Source of the DNA: Thuidium tamariscinum
Lineage: Eukaryota; Streptophyta; Bryopsida; Hypnales; Thuidiaceae
Length of the DNA stretch: 64,000 bases
Reading direction: 5' to 3'
Assembly (NCBI GenBank): GCA_947034885.2
Contig: OX344750.2
Coordinates: 34,768,821-34,832,820, forward strand
Shown here: piece by piece, positions 5,904-56,101 of the stretch
How the letters are laid out: every line of letters begins with the position of its first letter
Position numbering within the stretch: position 1 is the first letter of the stretch
Program-made: the position numbers and the translations under genes
The notes under the pieces: model-generated
Databases searched by the model: none
The model's input: the letters and a program-made list of their open reading frames with translations, nothing else
Told to the model about the DNA's origin: nothing

Positions 5904-7734
5904 TTGACCCCTAAAGGATCAACCTTTGAAATTTGACAACATATTTATTTGGAGCACGTATGTGTGAGTGGAGATTTTGATATTTTTGGTCCTAATTTTA
6001 ATAGAACATAGGGCCAAGGAATATCTTGCATGAGCACTAAAAATCAAAACATTTGGAAATATGAGTCACAAGTTATGTCCCAATATCTTGCTTTCTCTTG
6101 TATATGGGCAGTTTGGGGCTTTGGGTAGATTGGAAAAAATCACTTTTTTCGAAAAACAACAACTTGAAATTGGTTTTCTTTGTTTATATTTGTATAGAAA
6201 GCTTTTAATCATTTCATTTTTATCAATGAGTCAAAAGTTATGAGGAGTTTTGTTTGTGGGCAATTATGGACTCACTACTCTAAAACAAACTCTAAAATCC
6301 TTTATTTAACTCAATTTTCAATATTTTTCAAAAAATAAAATGATAGAGTTTAAATTGTTTATCACAACATTGCAACCATTGGGATTGGCATTTTTCAATT
6401 CCTTAAAGAAATTCTTAACAATGTTGTATTTTGAATCATTTTCTATTTCTTTCTACTTACTATTTTTTCCTATATGTTGTACAATTCCAAATGATTTGAA
6501 ATTTTTTGGCATTAACCCCTGAAGGACCAAGGCCTTTTTTCTGTCAAAAACCTCTCAAAACTACCATTTCTATTGCATTCACCCAAGAAAACAAAAAAAA
6601 TATTTTCTTAAGAATCTAACCGTAGGATCTTTTACTTAACTTGATTGAGATCAAGTGGTAAAAATTTCATGAAGTTTGACCGTACAGATTGGAAGATATG
6701 AGCATTCAAAGTTGGAAATACAAGTTTTTTTGAATTGTGGTTTGCATTTTCAGATGACTTTGACTGGCATTTATAAAAAATTGCAATATATACTTTGAAT
6801 TTATAATTTTTTGTATTAAGAAATTGAGTTGAGAGTCTAGGAAAAAAATTTCACACAAAAAACACTTGATTTTCATTCTTTAAGATGTAGGTCCAGATTT
6901 GAAAGAAAAACTAAATGGCTAATAACTCTAAGATGGGATTGAAATACACTAATCCCAATTATGAGATTGTTTTATCAAGTAAACATAACCTTGCCCAACA
7001 ATTTTTTTGAAAAATTGTGAAAATTGCATTCAAAAATGAATCCTATAAGTTATTTTTTCAAGAATTGTTTAGATTGCCCGAAAAACAAGATTGTCCATAA
7101 CTTTCTCATTATAAGTCCAAATAGAGTGAATCAAAGCTTCACATGTAGGCAAAAATATATTATTTTAGAAAAAAATTAATTAATTTTAAATTTTGACTTC
7201 TTGCAAAAAGAAATTTCTGCCCGTTGAACTAAAATATGTGCTTTTTGTCGTATAACTTTTGCTCCCGGTCACCAATTGAAATAAAAATTACATTCCCATG
7301 AAGCTAATCAGTTTTCCTATCTTATGAGATAGTTTCAAAAAGATTCATTAAAAATTGAGGTCTACGGAACCTACCCGAACTCCAAATTGTCCCTCGAGGG
7401 GACAATGGTCCTTTAGGGGTTAAAGAATGAATTCAAAGAGTAACCATCGTATTGAAATTTTTTTCATACAAATGTGACCTTGTAAAGTGTAGCTACTTAG
7501 GGTTTCCTAGGGATAAAAGAAGATTTTTGTCAATTCAAATGCTAATATATTGCAATCTACATACTAAAAAAACTTTGAATATGTTTTCACACGTTTCCAA
7601 ACCAATTTACTAAAAGATCCTACTGTTACAAATCTCAAAAAATGTCTTCTAAGAAAAAAATAGGTATTGGTACCAAAAATGGCAATTTTTGACCGTTTTT
7701 GGAGTAAACATTGATGAAGAACTTAAGGGGTTAA
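5904..7734 (+). mobile_element. Family A TIR element (outer copy), split by a second A element
   Basis: The left end TTGACCCCTAAAGGAT (TTAA changed to TTGA) and the right end CTTAAGGGG+TTAA bracket a family A interior. The interior stops at 6511 and resumes at 7424 (AAGAATGAATTCAAAGAGTA), with a 912-bp A-type element in between. Removing the insert leaves about 919 bp, close to the 932-943 bp of other copies. About 18 bp of the target present in other copies is missing at the junction, so a small deletion accompanied the insertion. No transposase frame. Confidence 0.8.
6512..7423 (-). mobile_element. A-type TIR element nested in another A element
   Basis: Bounded by TTAACCCCTGAAGGACC and GGTCCTTTAGGGGTTAA. 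The left part matches the reverse orientation of the outer element (ACCGTAGGATCTTTTACTTAA and similar words). The right part belongs to a subfamily also found at 17953 (GTCCCTCGAGGGACAATG; TTCGGGTAGG). Non-coding. Confidence 0.8.
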
Positions 7735-8676
7735 AGTTTAGAAATTGAACTAAATAAATTATATAAATTTCATTAATCTCTACTACATCTAAAAATCTAT
7801 TTGGTCAACTATCCAATTGTTTATATATTTTTGGAATTTTATATTCCAAATCAAATTTCACTAGTAATGGTCAAATCCTAGAACTGTCTACTTCAATTGC
7901 AATTTTATTCTTCTTCTCTTTTCTCAACTACTTAGTTATTCACTAGCTTTGGTCTTCAAATTTTAGATTGATTAAGGCTCTCTACTCTCTCTACTTTTAA
8001 AGTTTATCCTCATTTATCATTTTGTCTAAATGAGATCATGAGATCATTTAATATTGAATGAGCCTTTGATAGATGATGCATTCACAAATTCTATTTAATC
8101 CATTGTTACATAGCACATTTTTACAACAGTATATATATATAATTTAGATTAATTTAGATTTATAATGTCAAACTAGAGGATTTTCTAAATCTCAAGTTCT
8201 TATACATGAAACAATGTTTCTCTAGCAATTCTATTTTTTATCATTAGATACAAGACATATATTAAATTTTTAATCCTTTTTAATCCTTTAAGTTTGTATC
8301 AAAAAGTATTTTTAAACTTTATTTGTATAGAAAGTAAAAATAATAATAATGAAAATAGTTTACTTCTAGTCAAAATTCCATTAAAACTAGTCACCAATGG
8401 ATGTTAGGATTTTAAAAAAAATTAGGGCATACTTTTTAAAAAAAACTTTGAATTAAAGGCCAACAAAATGAAATGTTTTGATTGAAAGATAGCTCTAGTA
8501 CCTACCAAAAATTACAATCAAAACATTCCATTTTGTTGGGCTCCAATCTAAAGTTTTGTCGTGTAAACAAGCCCTTTAAAAGTTTGAATTGAGCTTTTTC
8601 TTTTTTGGAAGAAAATGTAGAGTATAAAACTTAGATTCTTTTTCATTCATTGAGTTTTGAGATATGGTTTTATATA
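7735..8676. other. AT-rich stretch with no gene seen
   Basis: Only short AT-rich words. The inverted pair CAACAAAATGGAATGTTTTG/CAAAACATTCCATTTTGTTG type near 8462-8540 suggests a small decayed foldback. Confidence 0.4.
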
Positions 8677-9265
8677 CTTCCTTTGTTCTACTAAAAACCT
8701 CCAAAAATTTCCTCCCTAAGGATTTAACTATATTTTTTTCCTGGTACTACAAATACATGTATTCAAGAACTAATAACCCATCCCTGATATTTGTGCAAAA
8801 AATCTTTGGCTTAGGTGTTGTTGTTTAGGCACCCAAAATCCATGTAGAAAGTATGATATTTGAGCACAAATTGTAAATGTTGCCAATTCTATCATCAGTT
8901 AGATGATTGAATGCGTGGAAGCCATGTAAAATGGGATTCTCGAAACATGTTCCCTAATCTAAATATACACAATGAAGAAACCTAGGCCACTTTATGATAA
9001 GATTTCTATAGTGCTGAAGTGGTCATTAAACACATCGTGGCAACACTACTATTTGAAGATGCAATTAGCGCAAGCCTCAAGGTGCCCTCGTATAGACAAT
9101 GTCAAGCTTGCAAGGCTTGGGGAATACTTCTAGATTGTTTCACTTGTTCCCGTAAGATAGTTCAACACAATAGACATTTACCCAATGGTTGAAATCAAGA
9201 AATGGAAATTTTTAATGGAACAAAATCTTTGTTTGATTTGGAGGTTTTTAGTGGATTACATAAAG
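8677..9265. mobile_element. Stowaway-like (Tc1/mariner) non-autonomous element
   Basis: The left end (from 8677) and the complement of the right end (to 9265) share CTWCTAAAAACCTCCAA-type sequence: CTACTAAAAACCTCCAA against CCACTAAAAACCTCCAA, 16 of 17 identical, with weaker matches outward. Each end is flanked by TA (8675-8676 and 9266-9267), the mariner target duplication. The 589-bp interior is non-coding. The same TIR core occurs in the 90-bp element at 32447. Confidence 0.6.
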
Positions 9266-10201
9266 TAGTTTTTTGGAGATAATTTTTTTGTTGAGTTTTT
9301 GCTATCTATTTTTGTTGTGTTACAAAACTCATATCAATCTTTTTATTATGAATTTTTAAATGAAATTTGAAGAGGGTGTTCTTGTCTTCTTATTGATTAT
9401 ATTTTAGGCCAAAATAGCTATTATTAGAAATATAGTATTTTTTCAAGTCATATTCTTTCTACTTTTACAATTGGTGATTCCATTAAGAAAACTTCAAGGC
9501 TCCTAATTTTGATTGACGTATTATATTATAGAGAACTCTAGAAGAGCTTTTACTAGAGTCCAAATAAATGAAGAAAGAATATTGAAGGCGTTAGTGTGAG
9601 CCCCCATTTTGTCACCTAGAACTCACTATTTTTTTTCAATTTTTTGCAAAACATAGTATAAAATGCAATATAAAAAATCCAAAAAAGAATATAAAACCAA
9701 AATAGGTATGTTACATGCTAATATAGTATTTGGTCACATTTTGAGTGTTTTTATTCAATTACATTGAAATCTTGTCTATAAATAGATTAAAAAATCACCA
9801 AAATCCAAATAATACCTATTTTTGATAGAATTACTTGAAATAGCTCATCTACAATGTGTAATGAATTTGACTAAAATAATTCGAGAAGAACTTGATGAGA
9901 ACTCTAGAACCCAATTTTATGGATAGGTTTCAAGCTCCCTAGTTGATTTCTATTTTTCATAAGAACACCGAACACCAATTGTAAACTTGCAAGTTTGAAA
10001 ACATCACAACAAACCTATGAATGGAATCTATGGCCAAAAGATGATGTTCTAGGGTTGAATTTGGACTAAGAATTCAACGGCAAAGTTGCTTTATCAAGAT
10101 TTTTTTGTGTAAAAGATTCCTTTGAATTTAGTAATTGAAGGATGGCGTGGGATTTTACTCTCTTTTGAGAATTGTGTAGAGTCTAAATATAGGCTTACAC
10201 A

Positions 10202-10477
10202 TTAGGGGAGATTTGAGGCCTCTAGAAGATTGCAAGTTCTTGTAGTCTAAAAACATAGAAACTACTACGGGAACGTAGAATCTCATAAATCCTACATGGT
10301 CGAAAAAGTGCCATGTCATTAATTTATTAATTTATTTGAATTTATTTTTTAAACTTCTCTTCACATTTCATGGTCCAAATTTTTTTTTGGTAATAGCTTG
10401 GCAACGGCCAACAATTATGAGAATAATTTTTGGAATAGTTCCAAAACGGCCCTCTAGAGGCCTTAAATCCCCCCTAA
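10202..10477 (-). mobile_element. Family D MITE in E1
   Basis: Termini TTAGGGGAGATTTGAGGCCT and the complement of AGGCCTTAAATCCCCCCTAA form a TIR of about 24 bp. The interior shares CATGTAGGATT, ACTACGGGAACG and TTGGCAACGGCC words (one strand or the other) with the copy at 17346. The uninterrupted sequence is preserved in E2 near 43,572-43,585 (CTTACATATCTTTTAC), which fixes the insertion point. Confidence 0.75.
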
Positions 10478-11113
10478 CGCATCTTTTGTAGAATTCTATG
10501 TAAGATTCCACACAAAAATTTGGAATTTTTGATACCCAAAAGATGTTTCTTCAAATAGTCAACCATTTTCTTTTTCAACAAGAAATTCGTAGAAATTCTC
10601 GAGGTTGTAGTAAAATCTCACTAGAAATTAAAGTAACTTCTTTTATACTAATAAAAACCTTCAACAAATTTTAGAACATTCAATAGTCAAAAGTATCCAA
10701 ACTAACAAGATCGTTGAAGAACTGACAAAATTAAAAATTACAATGGAATTTGACCGGTGTTTTGGTTGCATACAAAATTGAAATGAGATCCAAATTATGT
10801 CTTTTCTTACTCCCTTATACCTACTAAGGATCCTAGGCTAGTTACTTTTCTCATAAAAATCAACCTCCAAAAGTTGAATTTTTATCCTTTTTAGTCATTA
10901 AGTTGATGCTAGTATTCATTGAGTTTTTAGTGTAAAAAAAGGAGGTAAAAGGTTCTTTTACATTGAAATTGGCCTTATGAATCCAATGGCGCAATCCTTT
11001 TGTGATTTGTGGTTAATATTTAAACATTAAAAAATTGACTAACATAGAAAATAAAAATGATTAGGATTTAGATGAAAATTCTAATTGATATAGTATCATG
11101 AGAAAATGAGAGG

Positions 11114-11157
11114 GGGTGGGTGCCCTTAGAAGAGTATAAGTGGGCACCCATTCACCT
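11114..11157. repeat. Short GC-rich hairpin in E1
   Basis: GGTGGGTGCCC and GGGCACCCATTCACC face each other across about 18 nt. The related position in E2 (about 45.75 kb) keeps only part of it. It may be a structural element of family E. Confidence 0.35.
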
Positions 11158-12785
11158 CTCACAACACCCTATGTAACCATTATTATGGCATGCGACTACA
11201 TTGTTCATTTGATTGGATTTTTAGCCAAGTTACTAAACGTGTGTTTTAAGGAGCATTTTAAGCTCCTACTTTTGTATTTTTATTAGAGTTTTGAAAGACT
11301 TTGGGTTCCCTTTAAGTTTTGGTAACTTTTTGTATATTTAATTAAAGTTTTTAGTACACTAGGTGATGTTTTGTTAAATTTTTTTGAGTTTTTTTAATAC
11401 TTATACTAATTCTAAAGGATTTCTTCCCTTGAGACTAGTGATACTGCTTAAGGAAGGTTTTGAATGGTTGATTTAAAGTATTTTGTGTACTAGCACACTT
11501 ACACTAACTTGTTGAAATATTTTTAGTTTGTACTTTGTATTAGCCATTATACTAACATATGATGTAATTTTGAGCATGTACTAATCCATTTTAGGTGCCT
11601 ATATTTTCATGGGATGATGAAGGTTTGACTTCATAAATTATAGAGTGTTTAAGAATTTTGTAGGATTTCCAAAGTACGGCAAAGCTTCAATTTTGTGAGT
11701 TTTAGAGTGTCTTAGAATTTTGTTGAATTCCAAAGCATGGTGTGAGTGCTATTTTATCCACCCTTAGTAGATAGGTTTCAACATTGGGTTCATTTTTATT
11801 CTTTCGAAGTTTTAACCTAATGGATGTCTAAGCGCCATCCACTGTATCTTCCAAGCAATGGATTCTTTTCACTTTTCAGTGTATAAATCTATGTGACTAA
11901 GCCCTCAAAGAATTACAACTTAACAACATCCAAATCCTTAAATTCTAGCCTAACTGAGCCGCTAAGGTTTGCTAAAAATAGTAATGCATTTAAAAACTAA
12001 TAACTCTAACTTGTAGACATTCTCATGCCATTTTCATAAATATAAGGCACTCTCAAATCAAACCTTCATAACTAGAGTTATAGAAGGATGAAGTTTTATT
12101 CTTCTATAAGGCTTCAAAACTTCATCCAATGTTTTCTAGTCATTCTCTATTTGTTTTTAAGTTCAAACTTTTGAAAGAACTTGTTCTTCTCTTGATCTTG
12201 CTAAATTCTAAATTTTACCTTTAATAATGGCTTTATCTATTTTTTTATCCAAATTTTTATTCTAACTTTATCTGATTCTAACTTCATCCAATCCTATTTT
12301 CTTTGTTTGGTGCTCGTTTTCAACTTGCAAACTACTGATAGAAACTTCTAAGTATATACTATTACTTAGTAATACTAAGTCTTTAGTTCAACTTCGGTTA
12401 TTCATTCCAAATTGCTAATCTTGTAATTCCTATCCTACAATTAAACTTCTAGGTTCTTATTATTTTTAAATTTAACTCAAAATTTCCTTGTAGATCATAT
12501 TACTAGCTTTCTAAAATAGTATCACACTTGGTAATTGGAGACTCTTAGAAAAAGTTATCAATGGATGAAGTTTAACCGCTAATTGGCGATTAAAACTTCA
12601 TCCTTAATTATCTTCTAATTAGTAATTCAAAATGACTTCTAATTTTCACTTTTGAATTTAATTATTTTAATTCTATTTAATTTTAAGTCTTACTTCAAGA
12701 TTCTAGATTTAACTATATTTCATCCAATTTACTAACTAAACTTCATCCGGACATACCTTTCTTGATTTAGCTTTGATTTGGAAAT

Positions 12786-13728
12786 TTAACCCCTTTTGAC
12801 TATGTTTTCACCAAAAACTCTCCAAAACTACCCTTTCTGATACAAGTACCACATTCTTTTTAAAAACATTTTTGGACATGTGTGACCGCAGGATCTTGTA
12901 GTATTTTGGTTTGGGAAGATGTGGAAAAAATTTCAGAAATTTTCACTATGCAGATTGCAAGATATTAGCATTTGAATTGACAATAATCTTTTTTTTAACC
13001 CTATGAAAAAACGAGCAGTTGCACTTCACAAGCTCATATTTGTATGAAAAAATGTCTTATATGGTGGTGCATCTTTGGATTAATTCTTCAAATCAAGTTG
13101 GCTATATGCTTGAAAATTTTTAGATCATTTGGAATAGTGAAACATGTAGGAAAAAATGAGTAAGTCACTGAAAGAAGTAGAGACTGATTCAAAATACTAA
13201 ATTGATTAGAATTTATTTATAGAATTGAAAAATGTCAATTCTAATGGTTGTAATGTTGTAATAAACAATATACACCCAATGTTTTTATTTTTCTTCAAAA
13301 ATATTGAAAATTGATTAATATAATGGACTTCAAAGTTTATTTTAGGGTAGAGATTCCATAAGTGCCCGCAAATTAAAACTCCTCATAACTTTTGACTCAT
13401 TGATCAAAATAGAGTGATTCAAAGCTTTCAATGTACATATAAATCTAGAGAACCAATAAATCTAGATAATATATCAAATTTTTATTTTTTCAAAAAGTGA
13501 TTTTTTTTAAGCTGCCCAAGCTGCCCGGTCTCGTAAAGAAACTGCATATTATACAATAACTCTTAAACCATTTAGTCAAAAGTTATAAAAATTGTTTTGC
13601 CTTGAAGCTACTCCTTGACCACATGTTGTATGAAAAATTTAGAGAAAAAAAATAAAAATTACACTCGTAGTGAGCTACCCAAAAAATCTATAATTCCGAA
13701 AAACATGCTTTGGGACTTTAAGGGTTAA
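12786..13728 (-). mobile_element. Family A element nested in E1
   Basis: Starts TTAACCCCTTTTGAC and ends GGGACTTTAAGGGTTAA (943 bp). In reverse orientation it carries the typical A interior (CAGATTGCAAGATATTAGC, GTATGAAAAAATGTC, CATTTGGAATAGTGAAACAT, CATAACTTTTGACTCATTGA). Confidence 0.8.
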
Positions 13729-15619: not shown

Positions 15620-16508
15620 TTAACCCTTTAGTACCCGTGGTTGATTTGGGGGGCGAGTGTAGTTCTTCAAGAAAGTGAATTTTGTGGCCACTCTAAGGAT
15701 ATAATCTTAGATCAAACTGTGTAAAGTATTTCCATAAGGGAGATTCTTCAACCTAACAAAAAATCAAACTCATCCAACAATACAAATTGCTATAAATAAG
15801 GTAAAAGGTCCATAAATCAACCTTTTAAGGGCTAGAATTGAATTTTGAGGAGGTGCAACATCTTTGAATATTTTTTAGTAATTTTTTCCTGAGAGGCAAG
15901 TAGAATATGCATCTAACCCAAGTCGTTTCATTTTTTTTTTAAGCTTTTTGAAATTAGTTACAAATTTTTGAAATTCACAAAAAATGGTCATCTATGGTCA
16001 TCAAAAGTAGTACCCTTCTAAAATGTGCAAATTTGGTACATTGAAGAAAGAAAAATGTACCTCTAAATCATGTTTGCTTTTAGAGCCTTGTTGGAATTTG
16101 AATTGTTTTGTTTAGTCCTCAAAAATCAATGACTTGAATGATCCTTTAGAATTTGTGCTACATAAATTTCAATGCATAAGTTTACTTTGGGCATTCATGA
16201 AATTACAAAGAAACACTCATGCCTTGTCAAGACATCAAGATACAAAAAAATCTCACAAATTGGTTGATATTTTTTCATATTTTTGTTGAATACTTCTCAT
16301 TTGAAGGTTCAAGCCATTTGAATTTGCAACCTCATAGCTAATGCATTAGTGCTCCAATTCTCTTGAAATTAATTTTGTTTAAAGGGCATGAAGACACTCT
16401 AATTGCGTTGCTCTTTGAGGTTTTTGTGATCAGATGTATTTTGAACAATATTAGACCAAAAGTGCAAAAATCAACCCAAAAGTGGTCAACCAGGCACTAA
16501 AGGGTTAA
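15620..16508. mobile_element. TTAA-bounded TIR element, subfamily with TTAACCCTTTAGTACC ends
   Basis: TTAACCCTTTAGTACC (15620) faces GGCACTAAAGGGTTAA (to 16508): TIR 15 of 16 identical and TTAA at both edges. The 889-bp interior differs from family A and codes for nothing recognised. Confidence 0.75.
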
Positions 16509-17952: not shown

Positions 17953-18465
17953 TTAACCTCTAAAGTCCCGTTGTCCCTACATGGGACAAAATGGATTTCG
18001 GGTAGGCTCTTATGGACTCAATTTTTGGTCAAACTCCTTGAAACTTTTTCATAAAAAGGAAAAGAATTTAGCTTTTAGGGAATATAATTTTTATTTCAAT
18101 CAGTGCCCAAGAGCAAAATTTATGCTACAATAACCTCAAAATGGGGGAAATTGGGCAGTTAAAAAAATTTGCTATATATCCAAAAAAATTCTAATATTTC
18201 TTTCCTCATAGATTATTTTTTTTTCTGAATGGGAAGTTTTGATTCATTCTATTTGAATTTGTGATGTGAAAGTTATAGAGCTTCTTGTTTTACAAGCAAT
18301 TAGAGAATCTTCATGAAGAAAACTTTTTCTCTTACTTTGATTGCAAGTATCTTTTGATCTACCATACCTTGAGGGCAAATTCGTCTCATCCTGGACGAAA
18401 TCTTTTCTTTTTGCTTGAATTTTCCTTTTATTAATTCCATTAAGAATTTTTAGGATTTGATATAA
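17953..18465 (+). mobile_element. Partial A-type element
   Basis: Starts TTAACCTCTAAAGTCCC followed by GTTGTCCCTACATGGGACAA and TTTCGGGTAGG, the complement of the right part of the nested element at 6512-7423. Family C DNA begins at 18466 and no matching right end was found beyond it. Confidence 0.6.
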
Positions 18466-19729: not shown

Positions 19730-20661
19730 TTAACCCCTAAAGGACCAACATGCCTTTTTTGGCAACATAGCGATTTTGGGCAAGTATGTGTGGCTACAGA
19801 TTTTCATATTTTGGAACCAAACTTTAATAGAAGGTGTGGACGAGGAGTATCTTCAAAGCCCAACAATTTTCGTGACTTTTGATTACATGGTTGAAAAGTT
19901 ATCGCATAAAACGTTGTTTGTTTCTCAACTCGGGTAGTTTGGGCAGATAAAAAAAATCACTTTTTTTGGAAATAAAAATTTGAAATTGGTTTTATAGATT
20001 TATATATACATGTAAAGCTTTGAATCATTCCATTTGGATTAATGAGTCAAAAGTTATGAAGGATTTTAGTTTGCGGGTAATTATGGATTCTCTTCTCTAA
20101 AATAAACTTTGAAGTCCTTTATTTTACTCATTTTTCAATATTTTAGAAAACAAAACAAAACAGTAGGTGTAGATTGTTTATTACAACATTTGAACCATTG
20201 GGATTGGCATTTTTCAATTCAATAAATAAATTGTTACCATGTTTGTATTTTGAATCATTTTCTACTTCTTTCTTCTTACTATTTTTTTGGTACATGTTGT
20301 ACAATTCCAAATGATATGAAAATTTTCAAGCATGTAGACAACTTGAATTGGAGAATAAATCCAAAGAGTTGCAACCATTTTGGACATTTTTTCATACAAA
20401 TGTGACCTTCTGAAGTGCAGCTGCCCGGATTTTCGCAGTGGAAAAAAAATGATTTTTGTAACTTCAAACACTAATATCTTGCAATCTACACGGTGGAAAT
20501 TTCTGAAATTTTTTCTACATCTTTCCAAACTAGTGCACTAAGAGATCTTATGGTTACATGTGTCAAAAAATGTTTTTTTTCTGAAATTTGGTAGCTCTCC
20601 TAGAAATGACAGTTTTGGAGTAGTTTTGGTAGAAACATAGTTGCGGTCCTTTAGGGGTTAA
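19730..20661 (+). mobile_element. Family A element, well-preserved copy
   Basis: TTAACCCCTAAAGGACC faces GGTCCTTTAGGGGTTAA, here with one base difference in the right arm. At 932 bp it is nearly identical, in opposite orientation, to 55169-56101 (933 bp), so both are recent. A minus-strand open frame at 20262-20528 is shared with the other copy, but it is Phe/Lys-rich with no motif, so I regard it as non-coding. Confidence 0.9.
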
Positions 20662-21482: not shown

Positions 21483-23508
21483 GGGTGATTGCAAGAAACA
21501 CTCCATGTTGTATCTCAAAAATGCAGTTTTTGGCCACAAGAATGGTTGTACAGTGGGGTACCAATCAAAATGTCGTTTTTGAATTCGCAGTGAGAAAAAT
21601 TTCAGTACTGCCAACTTTGAAAGCCTCCCGAGAGCTTAAAAATTGGTATTTTACCACAAAATTTTCACCACAACATCATCTTTACGTTAATTATATGTAT
21701 GCTAAATTTCAAGGCCAAAAGATTCACCGAAAAAAAGTTATTCAAAATCTACCAACATGGGTAGTGGTGAGAAACATTTCACTACTTTCAACTTTGACAC
21801 CTTCCTAAGGATTGAGTTTTTTTTCTTTTGCCATGAAATTTTTTTTGATGAAACAATCTCTATGTTCTTAATTCGTATAAAAAATTCCAAGGTAAAAAAG
21901 TTTTTCTTAAGAAGATATTTGAAATCTCCCAATAGGTGTAGTTTTGAGAAAATTTTCACAATTGCCAACTTTGACACCCTCTCAAGGGCTGGAAAATTGG
22001 TTTCTTACCATGAATTTTTTTTGTGAAGTCATCTCTATGTTGATAATATGTGCTCCAAATTTCAAATTCAAATGAATTACCAAAAAAAGGATACACAAAA
22101 TCTCCCAATATGTGTAGTTGTGAGAAAATTTTCACTATTGCCGACTTTGACACCCTCCCAAAGGCTGAAAATTTGTCTATTTAACATGAATTTTTTTGAA
22201 TAAGATCAATTTTATGTTGATAATATATGTTCCAAATTTCAAGTTCAACACACTTACCCAGAAAAGATATTCAAAATCTCTCAACATGTGTAGTTGTGAG
22301 GTTGAGTTTTTACATTCGTGTCAAACTTTGCTCCACAAAATAACACTATACCAAGGGCTCAAAAACTCCTCCTCACAACTACACCTATTGGGAGATTTTG
22401 TATATCTTTTTTGTGGTAATTCATTTGAATTTGAAATTTGGAGCACATATTATCAACATAGAGATGACTTCACGAAAAAAAATTCATGGTAAGAAACCAA
22501 TTTTCCAGCCCTTGAGAGGGTGTCAAAGTTGGCAATTGTGAAAATTTTCTCAAAACTACACCTGTTGGGAGATTTCAAATATCTTCTTAAGAAAAAATTT
22601 TTTTACCTTGGAATTTTTTATACAAATTAAAAACATGGAGATTGTTTCATGAAAAAAATTTCATGGCAAAAGAAAAAAAACTCAATCCTTAGGAAGGTGT
22701 CAAAGTTGAAAGTAGTGAAATGTTTCTCACCACTACCCATGTTGGTAGATTTTGAATAACTTTTTTTCGGTGAATCTTTTGGCCTTGAAATTTGGCATAC
22801 ATATAATTAATTTAAAGATGATGTTGTGGTAAAAATTTTGTGGTAAAATACAAATTTTTGAGCTCTTGGGAGGCTTTCAAAGTTGGCAGTACTGAAATTT
22901 TTCTCACTCCAAATTCAAAAACGACATTTTGATTGGTACCCCACTATACTATGCAATACTAGCAATATTGCGCCTACAAATCTGAACCATTTGTCAGGCA
23001 ACCTTTTCAGTTTTAGTAATTCAAAAAACTTCAAAAAACTATTTAAAAAAAGTCTATTTTTCTAGACAAGATTGTGCTCACATTGCAACCAAAAGAAATT
23101 ATAGGAAAAATTTTCCCTCTTCATAGCCTTTGTACCTAGAAAGGTCACTTTGCACCCTTGTGTGCAATAGACATGTTGCTAATTTCATAAAAACTCATCA
23201 TTACCCCTTGTAATGTTAATAGACCTCCAACTTGATCAATTTGTGGCTTCAAATTCGTATTTTTGGATCAAAAAGAGGACTAAAAAACTCCAAAATGGCT
23301 AAAGTAGATATCCAATTGGGGGCAAGTTTAAAATAGTAAACTAATTTTAAAATTTTTGAATAAATCACACAACATTGAAAACTTTTGTGTGCACCTTAAT
23401 TCCAAATTTTAAGCTAAATGGACAAAATATGCAAAAGTTATGTACAAAAAACTACTTGTTGGAGGTCAAGGGAACAAAAAAGAAGACAAGTGTTTCTTGC
23501 AATCACCC
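21483..23508 (+). mobile_element. Family C element with a giant hairpin insert
   Basis: The left terminus GGGTGATTGCAAGAAACACT and the right terminus AGTGTTTCTTGCAATCACCC are intact and flanked by ACAT on both sides. The last 250 bp match the right parts of other C copies in reverse orientation. At 2,026 bp it is almost three times the usual length because of the inverted repeat inside (21548-22949). Confidence 0.85.
21548..22949. repeat. Long hairpin: 577-bp arms of 177-bp tandem units
   Basis: The left arm 21548-22124 and the right arm 22372-22949 are near-complete reverse complements (outer ends GTACAGTGGGGTACCAAT and ATTGGTACCCCACTATAC; inner ends GTAGTTGTGAG and CTCACAACTAC). The word CCAACTTTGA (or a close variant) recurs at 21611, 21788, 21965 and 22141, and its complement at 22523, 22700 and 22877: a spacing of 176-177 bp. 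So the arms are three-unit tandem arrays and the 247-bp loop contains a fourth unit. Transcription would give a long double-stranded RNA. Confidence 0.9.
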
Positions 23509-25805: not shown

Positions 25806-26999
25806 ATGGTTGGCGTAGCGGTGCAATGCGATCACAGTTTTAGTAAGGCGGCTATGCTGAAAGGATCGGGGAAGGGAATGGAGGAACCCAGCTTCTGCAA
25901 TCTGTCCTTAGCAGTGGACTGCACCCTCTCACTTGGGTCCACGACTTCCCGGACGGACATTCCTGCGCGCCTCTCTCGCGCTGGATCGCCCGACCAAGAC
26001 CTGGACTGGTCCTTGTCTGTGCGATCCGAGCAGGAGGTGCCGTCACGCCGCGCTAGCGAGCAAGGCCAGGATTTGTCATGGGGTGGCAGTTGCAATCGCA
26101 GCGATCCTGACCTCTCCCCCGAGTATTATCCTCAGGTAAATTCCTAACCTACCACATAGTCTTAGCATAAGGTTCGACGTGCAATTTGTCAGCATGATGG
26201 TGCTTTTGAATTTGTTTGTAGGCTTAGGTCAATCCGTGATCGTGCAGAATGACCAATTCTGTACCGGTTCTTGGAGTCGGGGCAGCCATATCCGTATCTT
26301 ACAGAGTGTTTTCTGCAGGTGCCTGAGAGGGGAGCTCATGTCAGTGACGACGGTCGTAGGGGCTTCAAGGCGTGGCCGCGGTCGTCGTACAAGGATGAAG
26401 TGAACACGTCCAAGTCTCTGTTCGGCATGATCGATGATCAGACTTACAGCAATCGAACCAGTCGTCAGCCATGGCTGCCCACAAGCGCCGCCACGAAGGT
26501 GGAGCAATGCATGGAGGACAGCGACAACTTCGTTCGCGTGTGTGCGCACTGTGGCACATCCAAGACTCCGCTTTGGAGGAATGGACCCGGAGGACCCAAG
26601 TCGCTCTGCAATGCGTGCGGCATCCGCTTCAAGAAGGCCGGGCGGAGATCCGCCGCCAATGGAGGCGTGGAATCGTCAGTGTCGCCGCCACCGACGACGA
26701 AAGTGACGAAGCGGAAGCTGATGAGCGAAGAGCCGCAGTATTGGGTGTTTCCGGCGAATGCGAAGGCAAGGAAGAGGAGCCGAGGATCGCTGATCCACCG
26801 GACGTCAGAGAGCCTCTTGTCCGGAAGCTGCATGACTTGGCAGCCATGGTCGTCGCCCCAAAGCACCTTCAGAGCGTCGCCTCTCTCCCCCAGCGAGGAC
26901 CGGAAGGTGCCGGCGCTGGATTCCGGATCCTTCTCGTCTGACGAAGAAGAAGGAGCGGTACTGTTAATGGCACTGTCCTGTGGCTTGGTGAATGCTTGA
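25806..26999 (+). CDS. B-class (LLM-domain) GATA transcription factor, two exons
   Basis: Exon 1 is 25806-26135 and exon 2 is 26319-26999; together they encode 336 aa. The ATG at 25806 is the first in its frame and has A at -3 and G at +4. Seen: a CTLSLG motif at residues 39-44; a GATA zinc finger with C185, C188, C207 and C210 in C-X2-C-X18-C-X2-C spacing and a [19 protein letters not shown] core; a basic tail (FKKAGRR) after it; further basic clusters at about 239-244 and 259-265 that may act as nuclear localisation signals; and a C-terminal acidic stretch followed by [10 protein letters not shown] (residues 323-332), the LLM motif. Family knowledge: LLM-domain B-GATAs (Arabidopsis GNC, CGA1/GNL, GATA15-17) are nuclear regulators that bind WGATAR sites and promote greening under light and cytokinin control. 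The length is like GNC/GNL. The coding sequence is far richer in G+C than its surroundings. Class is very sure; the exact orthologue is not. Confidence 0.96.
26136..26318 (+). other. Phase-0 intron of the GATA gene
   Basis: This 183-bp intron has donor CAG|GTAAAT after 26135 and acceptor TTTTCTGCAG| at 26318, preceded by a T-rich tract. Both flanking codons are complete (Gln|Val), so the frame runs on without adjustment. Retaining the intron would end translation after three codons (Val-Asn-Ser-stop). A weaker in-frame acceptor ending at 26306 would add four residues. Confidence 0.9.
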
Positions 27000-28286: not shown

Positions 28287-28894
28287 CTATGCCCTTTCAA
28301 CTTCAAAATTTGATAACTAATTCCACAAAGCTCCAAAAAATATGAAACGACTTGGATTAGATGTCAACTCTACTTGTCTTTGAAGAAAAATGTAATGAAA
28401 AATATTTCAAGATGTTTCACCTCCCCCAAATTCAGTTTCAACCCTTAGATGAGTGATTACTTGAGCCTTCTCCCTTATCATCTCATGTAGAAATATTTCT
28501 ATTTCTCCAAAGACCAAGTTATTCCGGAAAGGCTATTTTTCTATGGTGGAAGCACCCAAAATCATCCAAATAAGGAATTCAGTATAGTTGGAGGCAGTTT
28601 TCTCTAAAACAATATTTTTCTAGTATTAGTGAGTGAAAATCATGAATATTAAAAAAATATAGATTTTTTGGATGTCGTATGTAATTTCTATAATTTTTCA
28701 AAGTGTCGTCTCCCTAGACCACTAAAATTGTTCAATAAATACCCCAAATCTAAATGTTGCTAAAATTAGTAGTGAGCCAATTAGAGTTTGGTATATGTTC
28801 TTTAATTGTATCAGCAAATTACAGTCAAACATTTGGGGAACACATTCATTGCAATCAAGGGTTCATTGCAAAATACAAGTGCGGTACTGGGTGT

Positions 28895-29036
28895 TTAACC
28901 CTTATTAAAACCACTCAAAATTGTCATTTTTGTCACTTTCATCCAAAAAAACCCATTTCTTCTTAGAATCTAAATGTAGGATCTTGTACTTAATTTATTT
29001 GAAATCATGCAATAAAATTTTCATGAAGTTTGACCT
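28895..29036 (-). mobile_element. Truncated A-type terminus
   Basis: TTAACCCTTATTAAAACCACTC followed by ATGTAGGATCTTGTACTTAA and TTTCATGAAGTTTGACC corresponds to the first 140 bp of the element nested at 6512. The rest is missing. Confidence 0.55.
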
Positions 29037-29470
29037 TACATCAATACTTCTACCTTCCTTGGTGTTGACTATCTTCCCCTTCTTCTTTATACAACTACCA
29101 CACTCTTTCCAACCTTATTGTTACCAAAGCGGAATTAGTTCCACCTCATGACTTTTTATTTGATTGTAAAGAAGCTCATAACACAAATGAAAACCAAAAC
29201 CTTATGATTTGGAGATATTGACAATAAAAGATCTAGTCAATATGTAGGAAAAGGCTTCCAATTTCATTGATGATAAGTATTGAATTTGCAAGGAGTAAAA
29301 ACTACAATATGTATTACATTTATTTTGGACATTTTCAACTTCCTATGATTATGTGTGGTTTTTCATTGGCCACATTTCAAGTTATATTGTAGCTTGAGTA
29401 CAACAAGACAACCTTTCTATTGTCAACTTCTCTTGAAGCTAAGTCCTCTTTATTGAGTTGATTTAAGCTT

Positions 29471-36280: not shown

Positions 36281-36838
36281 TTAACCCTTTGGGGCCTAAG
36301 GAGCCCCAAGCAACCTCTTGAATTCTTCTAGAATCACTTTTTCATATTAAAATTTTATAGTTTAATTTAAATTATTATTTTTCTACAAATAAGAATTCAT
36401 ATCTTCTATCTAATGTGATTTTTAATTTATTTTTGGAAAAAAAATGAAATTTATATGATTTTTTAAAGTTTATGCCTTTGAAAAATCATAGTAATTACAA
36501 AAAAGCTCAATTTTCCATGAATTTTTTAATGAAAATAGAGTTAATTATATTGAACACTATGGTGAAGTTGACATGTTCTCTTTAGTTATACACAAATAAA
36601 TTCAATAGAGAAACATATTCCACAGTGCATTTTGAACTCTAAAATTCCCAACTTCAAATTGCAATAGACAAATCATCATTGCTCCAAATTTGATGGCCAA
36701 TGGCTCATTGGAAGCGAAATACCCGTGCCCTCACATCTTGTTTGTACCCCAAGAGGAACTAAGGCCAAGAGAGTGTTCCAATTCCCAAAATTCAATTTAA
36801 AAGAACCAAAATTGGTTTGCTAGGCCCTAAAGGGTTAA
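36281..36838. mobile_element. TTAA-bounded TIR element, GGGGCC subfamily
   Basis: TTAACCCTTTGGGGCCTA faces TAGGCCCTAAAGGGTTAA (17 of 18 identical), with TTAA at both edges. 558 bp, interior unlike family A. Confidence 0.75.
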
Positions 36839-41910: not shown

Positions 41911-42804
41911 CATTTAGAGTCCCAAAATTGCTTCAAAATACTCACTCCAAAATCAAGGTCAAAATCTTCATCAATTTTTAAAAAAAAAAAATTTTTAACG
42001 GTAGGATCCTTTGGTTAACTTACTCAAGTACATTGTCTCAAAATTTTAGAATGAATTTCTTCACCAAAAACAAAGTTCAATGTGCCTAAACTTCAAAATG
42101 TAGGCTTTTTTTAGCTCTTTTAAAAGATGAAGTATTGTCTTTCAACATTTTTAGAGAAAAACATGTATGTATTATAACTTGTGCATTTTAGTCAATGTGT
42201 TGGAAGATGGGTTGAAAACATACCTAAAAACATTCACTCAAAAACAAATTTGTATTCAATTTTAAGGAAATTGTTATGTGAAAGGTGTTATTGAATGATA
42301 GATAAAACTGATATGCTAATAACTTTTGGAAAAATTTGAGAATTATTAATTCCAATGGTAAAAGTATTCTAATAAACAATTAGTATCCTTGTATTTTTTT
42401 CAATTTGAAAATTTTCAAAATTGAGAGCAAAAAATGACTTTATATGTTTTTTCTACCTTTATTGCCTACAAACTAAACCTCTTCATTTTTTTTAACTAAT
42501 TATTTTGAATTGAATGGTTCAATTTTTTGTAAGTAGGTATCAATATATGAAATTTCAAAAGAATAATTTTTAGATTTTTAGAAAATACTTTTTAGTGCCT
42601 GGTTTGATATTTAAGTTGAAAAAAACATTACAATTTTTGTAATATTTGTTGAAATGACATAAAACAAAGTTTCACATGATGTAGATTATAATGAGTGTCA
42701 TCCATCCTACAAATTTCATGCAAAAATTGGAAATTATAATTCAATAAAGCCTACCTAAGTTTTCAAAAAGCCCAAAGTGAGTTTCTTGATCCTTTAGGGG
42801 TTAA
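41911..42804 (-). mobile_element. Degenerate family A element
   Basis: The right end CCTTTAGGGGTTAA is clear; the left end (ACATTTAGAGTCCCAAAA) is eroded. The interior contains ACGGTAGGATCCTTTGGTTAA and ATCAATTTTT words in A order. Its left end abuts the C element at 41903. Confidence 0.55.
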
Positions 42805-47716: not shown

Positions 47717-48657
47717 TTAACCCCTAAAGGACAAGCAAATTTGAAAAATTTGTCAACTTAGCAATTTTGGACAAGTACATGTAAGTATAGATTTTCATAT
47801 TTAAATCCAAATTTTAATAGAAGGGGTAAACATCAAATATCTTTTATATCCACTAAAATTCAGGACATTTGGAAATATGAGTAAAAAGTTATGGCCTAAT
47901 ATGTTACATTTTTTAGACATGGGTAGTTCAGCTAAATCGAAAAAATCACTTTTTTCAAAAACTAAAATTTGAAATTGATTTTATTCATTTCTGCATGTGT
48001 AGAAAGCTTTGAATCATTTGATTTTGATTAATGAGTCAAAAATTATAAGGAGTTCATATTTGTGGGTAGTTATCACGGTTTTCTTCTCTAAAATAAACTT
48101 AAAAGTCCTTATTTCACTCAATTTTCAATATTTTTTTGAAAAAATAAAATTATAGGATATAAATTGTTTATTAAAACATTGCAACCATTGGGATTGGCAT
48201 TTTCTAATTCCATAAATAAACTATCAATAATTTTGTATTTGAATGATTTGCTACTTTTCCTACTTATTATTTTTTCCTAATATATTGTACAATTTCAAAT
48301 AATTTTAGATTCTCTACACAAGTACTTTACTTGTCTTCAACACTGAATTTAAAGAAGCACCACCATTTTCGACCATTTTTCATATATTTTCTACCTTCTC
48401 AAGTACAGTTGTCCTATTTTCCACAAGGTCAAAAAAATTATTTTTGACCATTCAAATACTAATATCTTGCAATCTACATAGTAAAAATTTGTGAAATGTC
48501 TTCTACATGTTCTCAAACCAATTACTACAACATCTTAAGGTTACAAATCTCTATTTTTAATTTTTCAATTTATTAATTATTTATAATTTTAAATTTGATA
48601 TTGGTACTAGAAATTGTAGTTTTGATGTAAACATAGTCAAGAAGCTTAAGGGCTTAA
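47717..48657 (+). mobile_element. Family A element inside E2
   Basis: TTAACCCCTAAAGGACAAGC at the left and GCTTAAGGGCTTAA at the right enclose 941 bp with the full A interior (GAGTCAAAAATTATAAGGAG; GCAACCATTGGGATTGGCAT; AATATCTTGCAATCTACAT). Confidence 0.8.
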
Positions 48658-49560: not shown

Positions 49561-50223
49561 CACTACAAGAGAAAGGGGTGTTTTAAGTATAATCCTAAAG
49601 ATAACATTTTAAGTAATGACATTTTTAGGATATTTTAATTAAGAAATAAATGTCTTTCTCTATAAGGCTTATGTGTGTGCACTAGTAACAAAATAGTGAC
49701 CAAATTAACAAAACATCAACAAGTTTTTGTTAAATTTCATTGATTTGGATACTAGCATTGACAACATCAACAAGTTTTTGTTCATTTTGTATTGTACAAA
49801 TTAACAAAAATGTGTCATTGTTATTGTTGATGAATAGTGCAATGACAATTGACAAAATCAACAAAAATATGTTGAATTTTTAAAGAATTTTTAAAGAATC
49901 TAATTTAGAATCTTTTAGAAGTCTTTTGAAAATCTTTTAGAGAACCTTTAAGAATCTTTTGGAGAATCTTTTAAGAACCTTTTGAAATTTTGATTTGAAA
50001 TCTTTTAAAATTTTGATTTAGAATCTTTTGAGGATCTTTTTAACATCTTCTAAAAATCTGTTAGAATCTATTTGAATTTGGTGAAATGCTTTAGAAGTTT
50101 ATGAAGTCTATTATAACTAATTATAACAATTATGGAATTGTTAGGGTGGAGGCTTTATTAAATGAGATAATTTTTTATATTTTTCCTTTCAATTCATTCC
50201 TAAAGTCTCAAGGTTTTTCTTTT

Positions 50224-50664: not shown

Positions 50665-50899
50665 TCTTCAAATCCCATTGAAAATTATCATTTCTATTGC
50701 AAAGAGAAAAAATTGAGATTTTAGTTTTTTTTGCATACATAATCATAGGATTTTGCACTAGATTAGTAATAAGTGTTTGAAAGAAAACTTAGAACTTCAA
50801 ACATATGGATTACAAGATATTTGCATTTGAAGTTAAGAATTATTTTCTTAACCTTTTGTAATAAGATTTTAAGACTTTGAATCTTCCTAATTCAATTTT

Positions 50900-51112
50900 T
50901 TGCAATATCAATATTCATTAAGAAAAATTTATGCTCAAGAATTAAGTTGGGAATTTAGCCCGGAGGGTGCACTCTCCGTTTCTTTGATGTCAATGTGTGA
51001 ACTAATGAAGGATAATTTTAATTGCGTTGGAGGTAAATTTTATACAACCCTTCAAAGTAAATTAGCATCCACAATTGCAAGAGAAATGGGCCCTAAGCTA
51101 CAGAAATTTTGA
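50900..51112 (+). pseudogene. Open stretch with protein-like composition, unknown origin
   Basis: A 70-codon open frame with higher G+C than its surroundings (ELSWEFSPEGALSVSLMSMC; ASTIAREMGPKLQKF), without an ATG at its start. It might be a gene fragment carried by the CACTA element. I do not recognise it, and chance is possible. Confidence 0.2.
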
Positions 51113-51399
51113 CAGAATGATGTTCAAAATGACAGCCACAACTTGTGAAATTTTGTTTTTTTGTCAATACAGTCAATATTGCAATGTCTGTCAAATTTCT
51201 TGTCAATATTCTTGTCAATTTCTCAATCAATTTTGATAAACAAAGTTAATGTTTCTTTAGAAATCCAAGAAATTTTTATATACAATTTTTATTTTAGATA
51301 CAAAATGATGTAGCTATCATTTACTAACTTTATAAAGAATTATACCTAATTGCAATCTTTAACCATTCACCATCAACACCTTAACATTATTTTTCTTTG

Positions 51400-52391
51400 A
51401 GGGAGAGAAACTCCCTCTATATATGCAGAGGTAGGAGGTCAACCAATGCTTATGAGATATGTGAATTTTTGAAGTTGTGAGACCTCATAGTAAAGTTAGA
51501 AATCCATAATTTTGTAATAAAATTAAGATTGTAGACCTCATTTGAGCATAGTAGAATGTCTTTTTTCAAATAACTTTGAACTAAAACTAATTAGAATATA
51601 AATTGGAGTTTCAAGTTCAAAAATAATTTTGACAATTCAAGTTTTCAATCAAAATTTATAGGCAGATTTCAAAGAGGAAGTTTCAAAAAATATAATAAGA
51701 ACAATTTCAAACACCTCTTTGAAATATCAAAACTTTTGATTGGAAACTTGAAATGTCAAAAAAAATTTGGATGAAAAACTTGAGTTTATTTTCTCAGTAA
51801 TTTCAGTTCAATTTTTTTTGAAAAAATACATTCTTCTAAGCTTAAATGAGGTCTAAAGTCCTACTTTCAATACAATTCTTATTTCTAACTTAATGTGTTA
51901 AGTTAGAAATAAGAATTGTGTTGAAAGTAGGACTTTAGACCTCATTTAGGCATAGAAGAATGTATTTTTCCAAAAGAAATTGAACTAACATTAATTATAA
52001 AATAAATTCAAGTTTTTCATCCAAATTTTTTTTTGACATTTCAAGTTTCCAATCAAAAGTTATGATATTTCAAAGAGGTGTTTGAAATTGTTCTTATTAT
52101 ATTTTTTGAAACTTCCTCTTTTGAAATCTGCTTATAAATTTTGATTGAAAACTTAAAATGTCAAATTATGTTTGAACTTGAAACTCCAAATCATATTCTA
52201 ACTAGTCTTCATTCAAAGTTATTTGAAAAAAGACATTCTACTATGCTCAAATGAGGTCTAAAATCTTAGTTTTATTACAAAATTACGGATTTCTAACTTC
52301 ACTATGAGGTCTCACAACTTCAAAAAATCACAAATCCCATATGGGTTGGTCAACCTCCTACCTCCATATGTGTATATAAAGAGCTTCTTTT
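51400..52391. repeat. Palindrome of about 1 kb with a 4-nt centre; each arm itself palindromic
   Basis: The arms meet at TGTG (51894-51897). Symmetry holds to the outer edge: GGTAGGAGGTCAACC at 51430 faces GGTCAACCTCCTACC ending at 52362. Each arm also folds on itself: GACCTCATTTGAGCATAGTA near 51536 faces AAGCTTAAATGAGGTC ending near 51853. The structure is therefore four alternating copies of a unit of about 190 bp. Related single units lie at 35480 and 38785. Confidence 0.85.
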
Positions 52392-53559
52392 CCCCATTCA
52401 TTTCACAGAATACAAATGATTCATGAAAGAAAACAATTTAGTAAATAAATTAACTCCATGTTCTTGATTTGTTTTGATCAACATTCTAGAAAGTTGATTA
52501 AATTTTTTTTAAATTTAAATCATCCAAAAACATTTCATCTAAAAGCTTATCATTCATTTGATAAAATTTCATCCAATTTTTTTTCTAGCCACAATTTCAA
52601 GTACTTTATTAAATCCTTGAAAAATATTTTTTGGGATTAAGTGACGTGGAAAATAAAAAAATCCATGGTGGCAAAGGAGTGAGAGGAAGACTTGTTGATG
52701 TGTATCTCTGTCCAAATTGACAGCCGAATTGACAAAATTATGTCAAAAAAATATCCGAAAGAGGGTCTCCTAATCTAGAGCACAACTGACAAAATTATGT
52801 CAAATCAGCTGTCAATTCGAACATAATTTTCTCTTGTAGTGCATGTAATGAGGTTTTAGACTTTAAAAATAATGAAGGGTATACAAAAATACTAAATTTA
52901 TTAATTTTTTTTTCTAAAGTAGTCATGCCAAAATTCCCCTCTAAAAATTTGAATTTTTCATAGTATACTTCGTGTAGTTTTAATCTATGAATTGTACACT
53001 AAAATCACACTAAATTCATAGAGGTATTGAAATTATAGTTTACTAAGGGGTTAGGGGAATCCCAAGTGCTTGTTGTACCAGGAAATTAAAATCTAGATGG
53101 ATGATATTCACAGCCAGGCAACTGGTTTAGTTCACTCATTGACGGATTGAGTGGCATGGCAAGTTCATTGAATTTTTATGGACCTTGGGGTTTAGACTAA
53201 CCGGACTGGAGTTTTTTTGAATTGTTTGAATTTGGTTTTTTTTGAAGTGTTCAAAGATTTGAAGTTTCATGTCCTCTTCCATGTTTTTAAATCTTTGTAA
53301 ATGTTGTGTGTTATGTGTTTCTTAACACATAACCACAATTTTATACATTGCCTTGAGACATCAAACTAGAACTTGCATTGTAATGTGGATGTTTTTTTCT
53401 CATGGTATTTGTTTTTGTTTTTGTGCTTCATTGCTTCATAAGCTTTTGTATTAGTTTTTGAATGTGCTGTAATTTTGTGTTTTTTAGGTTTAATAGTTTG
53501 CAAATGGGTGAGTTCATTAGAGAAAATATAGACTCCGTAGAGGGCTAACCTTACAAGAA

Positions 53560-54540
53560 CTTGCAAATCCACCTAATTTATCTTCCCCAAAATCTACAAG
53601 TTCCCACATGGGAGAAGTTCCCATGTGTTCCCACCTACTTAATTTGAAATTACTTACACCAAGCACTTGGAGCCACCTCCACTAACTTTTTGAGGTGGTA
53701 CTTGCTCCCACATGTGCCCAGAGTTCTCCACGTGTTCCCTACACGTTCCCCACGGCCATTGAGGCCCAAACTTTCCAAAATGGCATTGGGGAGCCTTAAA
53801 TCCCATTTTCTCCTCCATGTGCTGTCCCCAAAAGGCTAACTTTTGGATTTTAGCTCCGAATGGCAAACGGATTGCGCCATTGGGTCCGGGAGGCCATAAT
53901 TAGTTTGAGGAGAATCCCTTACCCCTTAAACTATACCCTACATCTCAAAGAATCTTAGTGTAAGCCGGGATCAAAGTTAGGATAAATTCCCAACTTTTGG
54001 AGTTTGGCTTTTTTGGACCGCAAACCTTCACCAAGCTCTTAAGTAGATAGAGGGGGTAGGAATAGAATCAAAGTAAGCCTCGATTCGATGTCATATAGCC
54101 CTGGTACGCCGGTCAATTGCAACTTCCGTCGTTCAAATTGTCAATTGTGGAGGAATGTCGCCGATTCGGGGTCTTCCACCTATCGATTTGTCTTGAAACT
54201 TGGGGAAGCGCTCCGTTGGTGTGAGACCGCCTCACCGGATTTTTAGTGGAATTTTACCGCACTTTGGGATATTCTTTCGAATTTCCACCCAAAGTCCACC
54301 GCGGTTGACCGTCCGGGAAAATATCCAAATTACTTTGGAAAATTCCCAAACTTTGGAGGGGACCACCCCTGGAATCCCCCCACATGGATGCAAACCTGCA
54401 TCCCCACTGCGTGCTCCTAGAATTAGGAAATCGCCCGGTACCTGCATTTCAAGGTTAGTATTCCATCCGTATTCTCTTCGATGCTATGGGGAATGGAGGA
54501 TTCCTCCTAAATTCCCCCATGTGGGCTTCCTAACTTAGCT
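53560..54540. other. GC-richer right part of E2, no gene supported
   Basis: Related to 14.86-15.0 kb in E1 by the GAGGGGACCACCCCTGGAAT-type block (54356; compare GAGGGACCTCCCTTGGTAT at 14948). The open frame at 54200-54538 is Pro/Arg-rich without motifs. A short inverted pair (TTCCCACATGGGA) lies at about 53602. Confidence 0.35.
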
Positions 54541-55168
54541 AGGGCCTTTTTAGGCTTCTTACCCTAATCCTGCACATCACTATCAGTTTGACGTCTATTT
54601 AGCCAAGACAAAACCCGTTTTGGATGCAAACTATCCTAAACCCCATCTAATGACCAAATGGCATATTAGTATGCGTAATGCTAATACCAGTTTAATACTC
54701 TTTTGTGGGTTTTACGAGCCTAATTATGCCTTAGATTGTGTAGGAATCTGAAAAAAGAACTCGTGAGTCCCCGGTGATGAATCGGGGGCTCACAATGTTT
54801 GTGTCAGTTTTAATGTTGTTAGAGCATTTAATCGTAAAAGAAATGCAAAAAAAATTTCAAGTTGTAGCTTCCAACTTCTAGGTAGACTATGAAAGAAGGA
54901 ACCTGTCATCTCTCACTGACAGATCTAGAATTAAAAAAGAAGAGATGTTTAAGATATTTACATAAGCTAAAAGGCATCTCTGTCAACAATTTCGTCCTTT
55001 CTATAGCTCAGTAGAGGTGCAATAGAGGTGCAGTAATAGACTGGCTTGTCAAAGTAAGATTTGAATTACTCAATTCAAATTACGTAGATCTTAAGTGAAT
55101 AGTTAGATTTGGGATTAGTAAACATGTACGGACCTCCTAAATTCCCTCATCTAGATTTTCTTCGTAGA

Positions 55169-56101
55169 TTAACCCCTAAAGGACCGCAACTATGTTTCCA
55201 CCAAAACTGCTCCAAAACTGTCATTTCTAGGACAGCTACCAAATTTCAGAAAAAAATCATTTTTTGACACATGAAACCGTAGGATCTCTTAGTGCACTAG
55301 TTTGGGAAGATGTAGAAAAAATTTCAGAAATTTACGCAATGTAGATTGCAAGATATTAGTGTTTGAAGTTACAAAAATCATTTTTTTCCATTGCGAAAAT
55401 CTGGGCAGCTGCACTTCAGAAGGTCACATTTGTATGAAAAAATGTCCAAAATGGTTGCAACTCTTTGGATTTATTCTCCAATTCAAGTTGGATACATGCT
55501 TGAAATTTTTCATATCATTTGGAATTGTACAACATGTACAAAAAAATAAGAAGAAGAAAGAAGTAGAGAATGATTCAAAATACAAAAATGGTAACAATTT
55601 ATTTATTGAATTGAAAAATGCCAATCTCCATGGTTCAAATGTTGTAATAAACAATCTACACCCAATGTTTTTATTTTTTTTTCAAAAATATTGAAAATTG
55701 AGTAAAATAAAGGACTTCAAAGTTTATTTTAGAGAAGAGAATCCATAACTACTCGCAAACTAAAATCCTTCATAATTTTTGACTCATTAATCCAAATGGA
55801 ATGATTCAAAGCTTTACATGTATATATAAATCTGTAAAACCAATTTCAAATTTTTATTTCCAAAAAAAGTGATTTTTTTTATCTGCCCAAACTACCCAAG
55901 TTGAGAAACAGACAACGTTTTATGTGATAACTTTTCAACCATGTAGTCAAAAGTCACAAAAATTGTTGGGCTTTGAAGATACTCCTCGTCCACACCTTCT
56001 ATTAAAGTTTGGTTCCAAAATATGGAAATCTCTATCCACACGTACTTGCCCAAAATTGCTATGTTGCCAAAAAAAAGGCATGTTGGTCCTTTAGGGGTTA
56101 A
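55169..56101 (-). mobile_element. Family A element, well-preserved copy
   Basis: TTAACCCCTAAAGGACC faces GGTCCTTTAGGGGTTAA (perfect 17-bp TIR including TTAA). It is the inverted near-twin of 19730-20661. A run of 12 G follows directly (56102-56113). Confidence 0.9.

Follow-up and report, generated by a model that had tools for sequence, protein, structure and literature searches.

Short TTAA-flanked elements in the moss Thuidium tamariscinum as probable non-autonomous members of several piggyBac families

To which transposon superfamily do the short, TTAA-flanked elements with CCC ends in the genome of the moss Thuidium tamariscinum belong, and what enzyme would move them? The question is raised by a 64-kb stretch of DNA (C2:34768821-34832820, hereafter the window) of an assembly of 363.2 Mb in 19 contigs. 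The repeats in the window are confirmed as real, short, gene-less elements of piggyBac type. They are read here, with a probability of about 95%, as non-autonomous members of several piggyBac families in the moss, resembling miniature inverted-repeat transposable elements (MITEs). The piggyBac reading is based on a duplicated TTAA, the sequence of the ends, copy number, a transposase domain with three aspartates (DDD) in the same genome, exact TTAA boundaries, and homology between the ends of one window element and those of a transposase-bearing element.

An initial annotation of the window had counted at least seven TTAA-flanked, CCC-ended elements, some with one degenerate end, and this count is borne out. 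The elements, none assigned to a strand and named below by their first position, lie at 6512-7423 (912 bp), 12786-13728 (943 bp), 15620-16508 (889 bp), 19730-20661 (932 bp), 36281-36838 (558 bp), 47717-48657 (about 941 bp) and 55169-56101 (933 bp). All seven left termini read exactly TTAACCC, and six elements have a GGGTTAA partner end at a distance of 558-943 bp. The right end of 47717 is degenerate, reading TTAAGCCCTTAAGC inwards with TTAA at 48654-48657, and the left terminal inverted repeat (TIR) of 12786 is changed after CCCCT. The chance expectation was estimated from 100 simulated windows for each of two Markov orders (200 in total). TTAACCC/GGGTTAA sites number 24 in the window against means of 11.5 (order-1) and 6.0 (order-3), and no enrichment is seen for the control motif TTAAGGG/CCCTTAA (9 against 13.8 and 8.6). 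Five TIR pairs lie 300-1500 bp apart with at least 10 of 13 bases matching, compared with none in the 200 simulations; the pairs of 12786 and 47717 fall outside these five. The annotation had also held that the interiors are non-coding and that the source transposase lies elsewhere. In agreement with this, no transposase frame was recognised in the window elements among 15 frames of at least 110 codons, read stop to stop, four of which were scanned against Pfam, and elements carrying the piggyBac transposase domain (PF13843) occur elsewhere in the genome.

The earlier proposal of at least three TIR subfamilies corresponds to three families. Five elements (6512, 12786, 19730, 47717 and 55169) form family A, with 67-95% identity over aligned parts; 6512 aligns to the family in parts only, and 55169 is 95% identical to 19730 in inverse orientation. 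Elements 15620 (family B) and 36281 (family C) match neither family A nor each other at 1e-5. The TIRs read CCCCTAAAGGACC in 19730, CCCTTTAGTRCC in 15620 and CCCTTTRGGGCCTA in 36281. A further family-A MITE (5904-7734, no strand assigned) is split by the nested element 6512-7423, and its arms, joined after removal of the insert, can be aligned with family-A copies from one end to the other (1-923); its left end is decayed to TTGACCCC (TTGACCCCTAAAGGA in the feature list) and its right end reads TTAACCCCTTAAG inwards. Copy counts in the genome are lower bounds, taken from the best candidates scored. Element 19730 has at least 41 near-full-length matches (from position 1 or 2 to 932) at 95-100%, itself included, plus one short match; family B has at least 40 at 90-100% plus four short ones, and family C at least 40 at 94-100%. 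An exact family-A 17-mer, TTAACCCCTAAAGGACC, occurs 4,780 times genome-wide, whereas its reversed control does not occur. Additional family-like stretches were seen in the window at 4831-5639, 17953-18321, 28299-28478, 28907-29040, 42289-42559, 61278-61464 and 62937-63621; these and the main elements jointly make up about 9.7 kb of it, in 14 merged intervals. At 17953-17956, two piggyBac-like ends diverge from a shared TTAA (TTAACCTCTAAAG rightward and TTAACCCCTTCATG leftward), as if one element had taken the duplication of the other as its target.

The TTAA is a four-base target-site duplication, because the flanks of the copies, the empty sites and three nested insertions agree; the annotation had named this duplication as a piggyBac hallmark. 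TTAA is present at both ends in 29 of 30 fetched family-A copies (the window copy included), the remaining copy having TTAA and TTAT, and the sequence outside the TTAA varies among the 30. It is likewise present at all eight ends of four B copies and all ten ends of five C copies. The empty-site check that the annotation had suggested for related genomes was run on paralogous sites instead: the flanks of the 30 family-A copies were joined at a single TTAA and searched against the fetched DNA, with self-matches excluded. A relative crossing the junction was found for 7 of the 30 joined sites. At six of these seven (L019, L025, L027, L029, L030 and L036), every crossing relative has four bases, free of gaps, opposite the TTAA, and at four of the six the alignment is also gap-free within six bases of it; exact TTAA occurs in three of four crossing relatives at L029 and in two of five at L019. 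The seventh site, L010, is ambiguous and is taken up below.

The nests give a similar picture. On C8, a B-like element lies inside a B copy, and the host with one TTAA aligns to 15620 over 167 bp with no gap at the junction, where 15620 reads CTAA. At L106, a transposase-bearing element lies inside a relative of 6512; once a single TTAA is left, the host gives a nearly full-length alignment with 6512 (72.6%), and none of the 25 relatives that cross the junction has a gap within six bases of it. In the nest of the window itself (6512-7423 within 5904-7734), no gap faces the TTAA in 30 of 32 relatives, 28 of which read TTGG there.

The search for an autonomous partner with a DDD transposase that the annotation had suggested was also made. 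A profile search of the genome with PF13843 (DDE_Tnp_1_7) gave at least 116 scored matches of 659 candidates, with E values of 6e-80 to 1e-70; 42 of the 116 have an in-frame stop inside the match and 74 have none. The frames, read without introns, extend up to 1,214 codons, and Pfam gives no match N-terminal of PF13843. The L044 frame matches the solved structures of piggyBat (9c0f, 3e-27) and piggyBac (6x67, 1e-22). D268, D346 and D447, which we take to be the residue numbers in piggyBac, each face an aspartate in the L044 alignments, and the DDD is kept in the frames examined. Eight aligned frames, with pairwise identities of 25-69%, share invariant D676, D781, D897 and D900 and a cysteine-rich tail of five invariant cysteines (C994, C997, C1008, C1013 and C1017; L044 numbering).

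One complete transposase-bearing element (L041:344-5239) has the ends TTAACCCCTAAGCGTCGGGCC and TTAACCCCTTAGCGACGCTC. Forty further transposase loci were sampled 0.7-1.7 kb beyond the domain, where TTAACCC was present in 28, TTAACTC in one and neither in 11. When 3 of these 11 were sampled 1.7-2.9 kb out, each had a TTAACCC end, one of them being the L106 nest, and in the other eight no TTAACCC was found nearer in. Nine additional loci had TTAACCC in three cases at 0.1-1.7 kb beyond the domain, and all of nine stretches farther out contained it somewhere, although single cases may be unrelated neighbours. For this reason a paired boundary test was made on 13 pairs of transposase loci chosen by TIR likeness. 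In 12 of the 13 pairs homology stops exactly at TTAA+CCC, the inner 100 bp being 68-100% identical and the outer flank 54-61%, the level of unrelated sequence. Among the ends at transposase loci are TTAACCCTTTAGGGCC, which family C has too, and the family-B sequence TTAACCCTTTAGTG, seen in the pair that failed the test (L083/L085).

These elements are linked to the window by one of 5,143 bp on C7 (L119 with L047), whose PF13843 frame has 774 codons and which matches 6512 at both ends. Its right end is 69.6% identical to the first 261 bp of 6512 (2e-26) and its left end 74.7% identical to the last 93 bp (1e-11). Ends common to transposase-bearing and non-autonomous elements are thus present for 6512; otherwise family A shares a subterminal block of 37-55 bp, which in 19730 is located 191-263 bp in from the right end and which recurs at almost that distance in five transposase loci (83-92%). 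Family C shares 16 terminal bases with PF13843-bearing elements. Two candidates for a family-A partner were set aside. L106 has an exact family-A TIR downstream of its transposase, but the full locus is a nest in which a separate piggyBac (897-6389) with its own ends, TTAATCCTTCATCGCC and TTAACCCCTCATCGCC, lies inside the relative of 6512. A family-A-like end in L108 was read as that of a neighbouring element rather than as its own.

Since no transposase frame was recognised in them, the window elements would need an enzyme from full-length relatives. Full-length piggyBac elements elsewhere in the genome encode a DDD transposase with a cysteine-rich C-terminus. Given any element whose ends match, this enzyme would bind its CCC-ended termini and the subterminal sequences, excise the element and join it into a TTAA, which would be duplicated. 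Such transposases may be expressed, and the shared ends suggest that they may mobilise the window families in trans. In piggyBac of Trichoplusia, as described in an excerpt of PMC7351741, the enzyme frees the 3' end, a hairpin forms over the four flanking bases and opens, and the element is joined to a new TTAA. By analogy, excision in the moss may also pass through a TTAA hairpin and leave no footprint.

Several results weigh against the piggyBac reading or parts of it. L010 lies in an A-run, and 12 of its 39 relatives are gap-free, whereas in 27 of them two or three of the four are missing. A separate gap, 16 bases long, lies a few bases left of the junction in the window nest, and the pair L083/L085 showed no inner excess in the boundary test (0.59 against 0.63). 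In the part of the 659 candidate loci that was sampled, the exact family-A TIR was not found on any transposase-bearing element, and the proposed transposase partners for families B and C are suggested by shared TIR letters only. The relatives of L010 would fit a shorter duplication, and it might be supposed that the TTAA belongs to the inverted repeat, the true duplication being TA (as for Tc1/mariner), TTA/TAA (as for PIF/Harbinger) or absent. TTAA is palindromic and nearly invariant at all ends, and flanks alone cannot tell a TTAA that belongs to the TIR from a duplicated one. However, four bases stand opposite a single TTAA in every crossing relative at the six other testable sites, and the C8 and L106 nests are clean at their junctions, so that this explanation is hardly credible. 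Tc1/mariner elements duplicate TA. The duplication of Tourist elements is given as TAA/TTA in an excerpt of PMC10004981. Both PIF/Harbinger and Tc1/mariner were rejected because the full four-base TTAA is duplicated and not TWA or TA.

It might also be supposed that another TTAA-duplicating superfamily produced the window elements and that piggyBac is present in the genome by coincidence. Sola3 is presumably one such candidate. Kolobok is another, as it yields TTAA duplications, but its ends are described as 5'-RR...YY-3' (PMC9587614, in the text available) and those in the window are CCC...GGG, and it was rejected on this ground. Furthermore, 6512 shares both ends and family C 16 terminal bases with PF13843-bearing elements, although no Kolobok or Sola profile search was made; an origin in another superfamily is very improbable. 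A different possibility concerns family A alone, which could be the old remains of a piggyBac family that no longer moves and has lost its own transposase lineage, recent activity being confined to other families. The missing exact family-A TIR among the sampled transposase loci is consistent with this, as is the state of the window members, which are down to 67% alike and in several cases decayed. Against it, the 41 best matches to 19730 are 95-100% identical to it, related transposase-bearing elements exist, and the sampled ends are part of the 659 candidate loci; loss of mobility in family A is therefore considered rather unlikely. The assignment of the window elements to piggyBac, as the annotation had proposed from their termini, is supported by the TTAA duplication, the CCC-starting TIRs found in the superfamily, the DDD transposase and the ends that 6512 shares with a transposase-bearing element.

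The moss elements have the same TTAA duplication, CCC ends, DDD context and cysteine-rich C-terminus as piggyBac of Trichoplusia ni (6x67) and piggyBat (9c0f). They are only distantly similar to these in sequence, however, and differ in their long N-terminal part and in an element length of about 5 kb. CCCTT is the most conserved 5' motif of piggyBac TIRs according to the accessible part of an animal survey (PMC10813416), which also states that insects, fungi and plants have all yielded members of the superfamily. The annotation had described piggyBac as poorly documented in land plants. This is correct only in part: in the portions available, PiggyBac is included by a review in the MITE superfamilies of angiosperms (PMC10004981), and 1,230 PiggyBac hits covering 122 kb are recorded in a repeat table for a fern (PMC6890710). 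A literature search, which left out subscription papers and preprints, found no paper on moss piggyBac elements. The angiosperm MITEs of that review are likewise plant, non-autonomous and assigned to PiggyBac, whereas here the host is a moss, and transposase-bearing relatives and empty sites are found in the same genome. The superfamily is known and the moss families are new.

Recent movement is suggested by a transposase-bearing element of 5,096 bp, with ends CCCTGAAACGCCGGGC and CCCCTAAACGCCGG, whose two boundaries coincide exactly with TTAA. A single base separates two of its copies; a third copy, compared with the first over 4,963 bp, shows two differences, and the flanks of all three are different. 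A whole-element search returned 11 full-length matches at 100% (rounded) on C1, C2, C5, C8 and C9, eight of which score the same as the query's own place. The other 29 among the best 40 of 119 candidates align along 1.6 kb of coding sequence or less, at 67-71% identity, and no intermediate copies (above 71% and not part of the full-length group) were found among these 40. The element has probably moved very recently, in a fresh burst. The gap between the 11 near-identical copies and relatives of at most 71%, among the best 40 scored, suggests a single very recent source. It is tentatively proposed from these sequences that the moss may be undergoing a piggyBac invasion at present, possibly begun by horizontal arrival, after earlier waves that left thousands of MITEs; if so, the 5,096-bp element would be autonomous, an active piggyBac occurring naturally in a land plant. 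At L045:2926-2949, one copy of it sits at the terminal TTAA of a family-A-like element (flank ...GTCCTTTAGGG), and element ends thus serve as targets for later elements.

piggyBac is widely used as an insect-derived genetic tool, and little has been written about its natural role in plants. The moss stands out by the scale, diversity and apparent recent activity of its elements: at least 116 domain matches, 4,780 perfect family-A ends and 11 near-identical copies suggest that piggyBac is active in a land plant today. The moss would supply plant-native transposases for tests of footprint-free excision, and would allow the spread of MITEs to be followed and the question to be addressed of whether the elements cross between distant hosts.

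Other features of the window and genome were also observed. Two long inverted-repeat complexes in the window, at 21548-22949 (arms to 298 nt, 97% complementary) and 51428-52364 (arms to 202 nt, 91% complementary), are outside the TTAA families as far as examined, and the 64-kb window has no transfer RNA or Rfam matches. The annotation had taken the DNA to be that of a plant, rightly so, as the genome has 49 matches to chlorophyll a/b-binding proteins, and an Lhcb9-like gene narrows the host to a moss. The frame of this gene (L117) matches chain 9 of 8htu (440 bits) and of 7xqp (422 bits), which we take to be structures of Physcomitrium photosystem I with Lhcb9; the next chains, all of one entry, score 353, 302 and 281 bits, and the others among the matches listed at most 259. 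Clusters of light-harvesting genes were observed on C1 (about 50.50-50.56 Mb) and C4 (about 6.915-6.922 Mb), each match being uninterrupted over nearly the whole domain. LHCB9 is described as specific to Physcomitrella and its complex as moss-specific in excerpts of PMC9434285 and PMC11629750. Within the window, an open frame at 26253-26999 (+) contains a GATA zinc finger (PF00320, 1e-17) and is apparently an exon of a host transcription factor.

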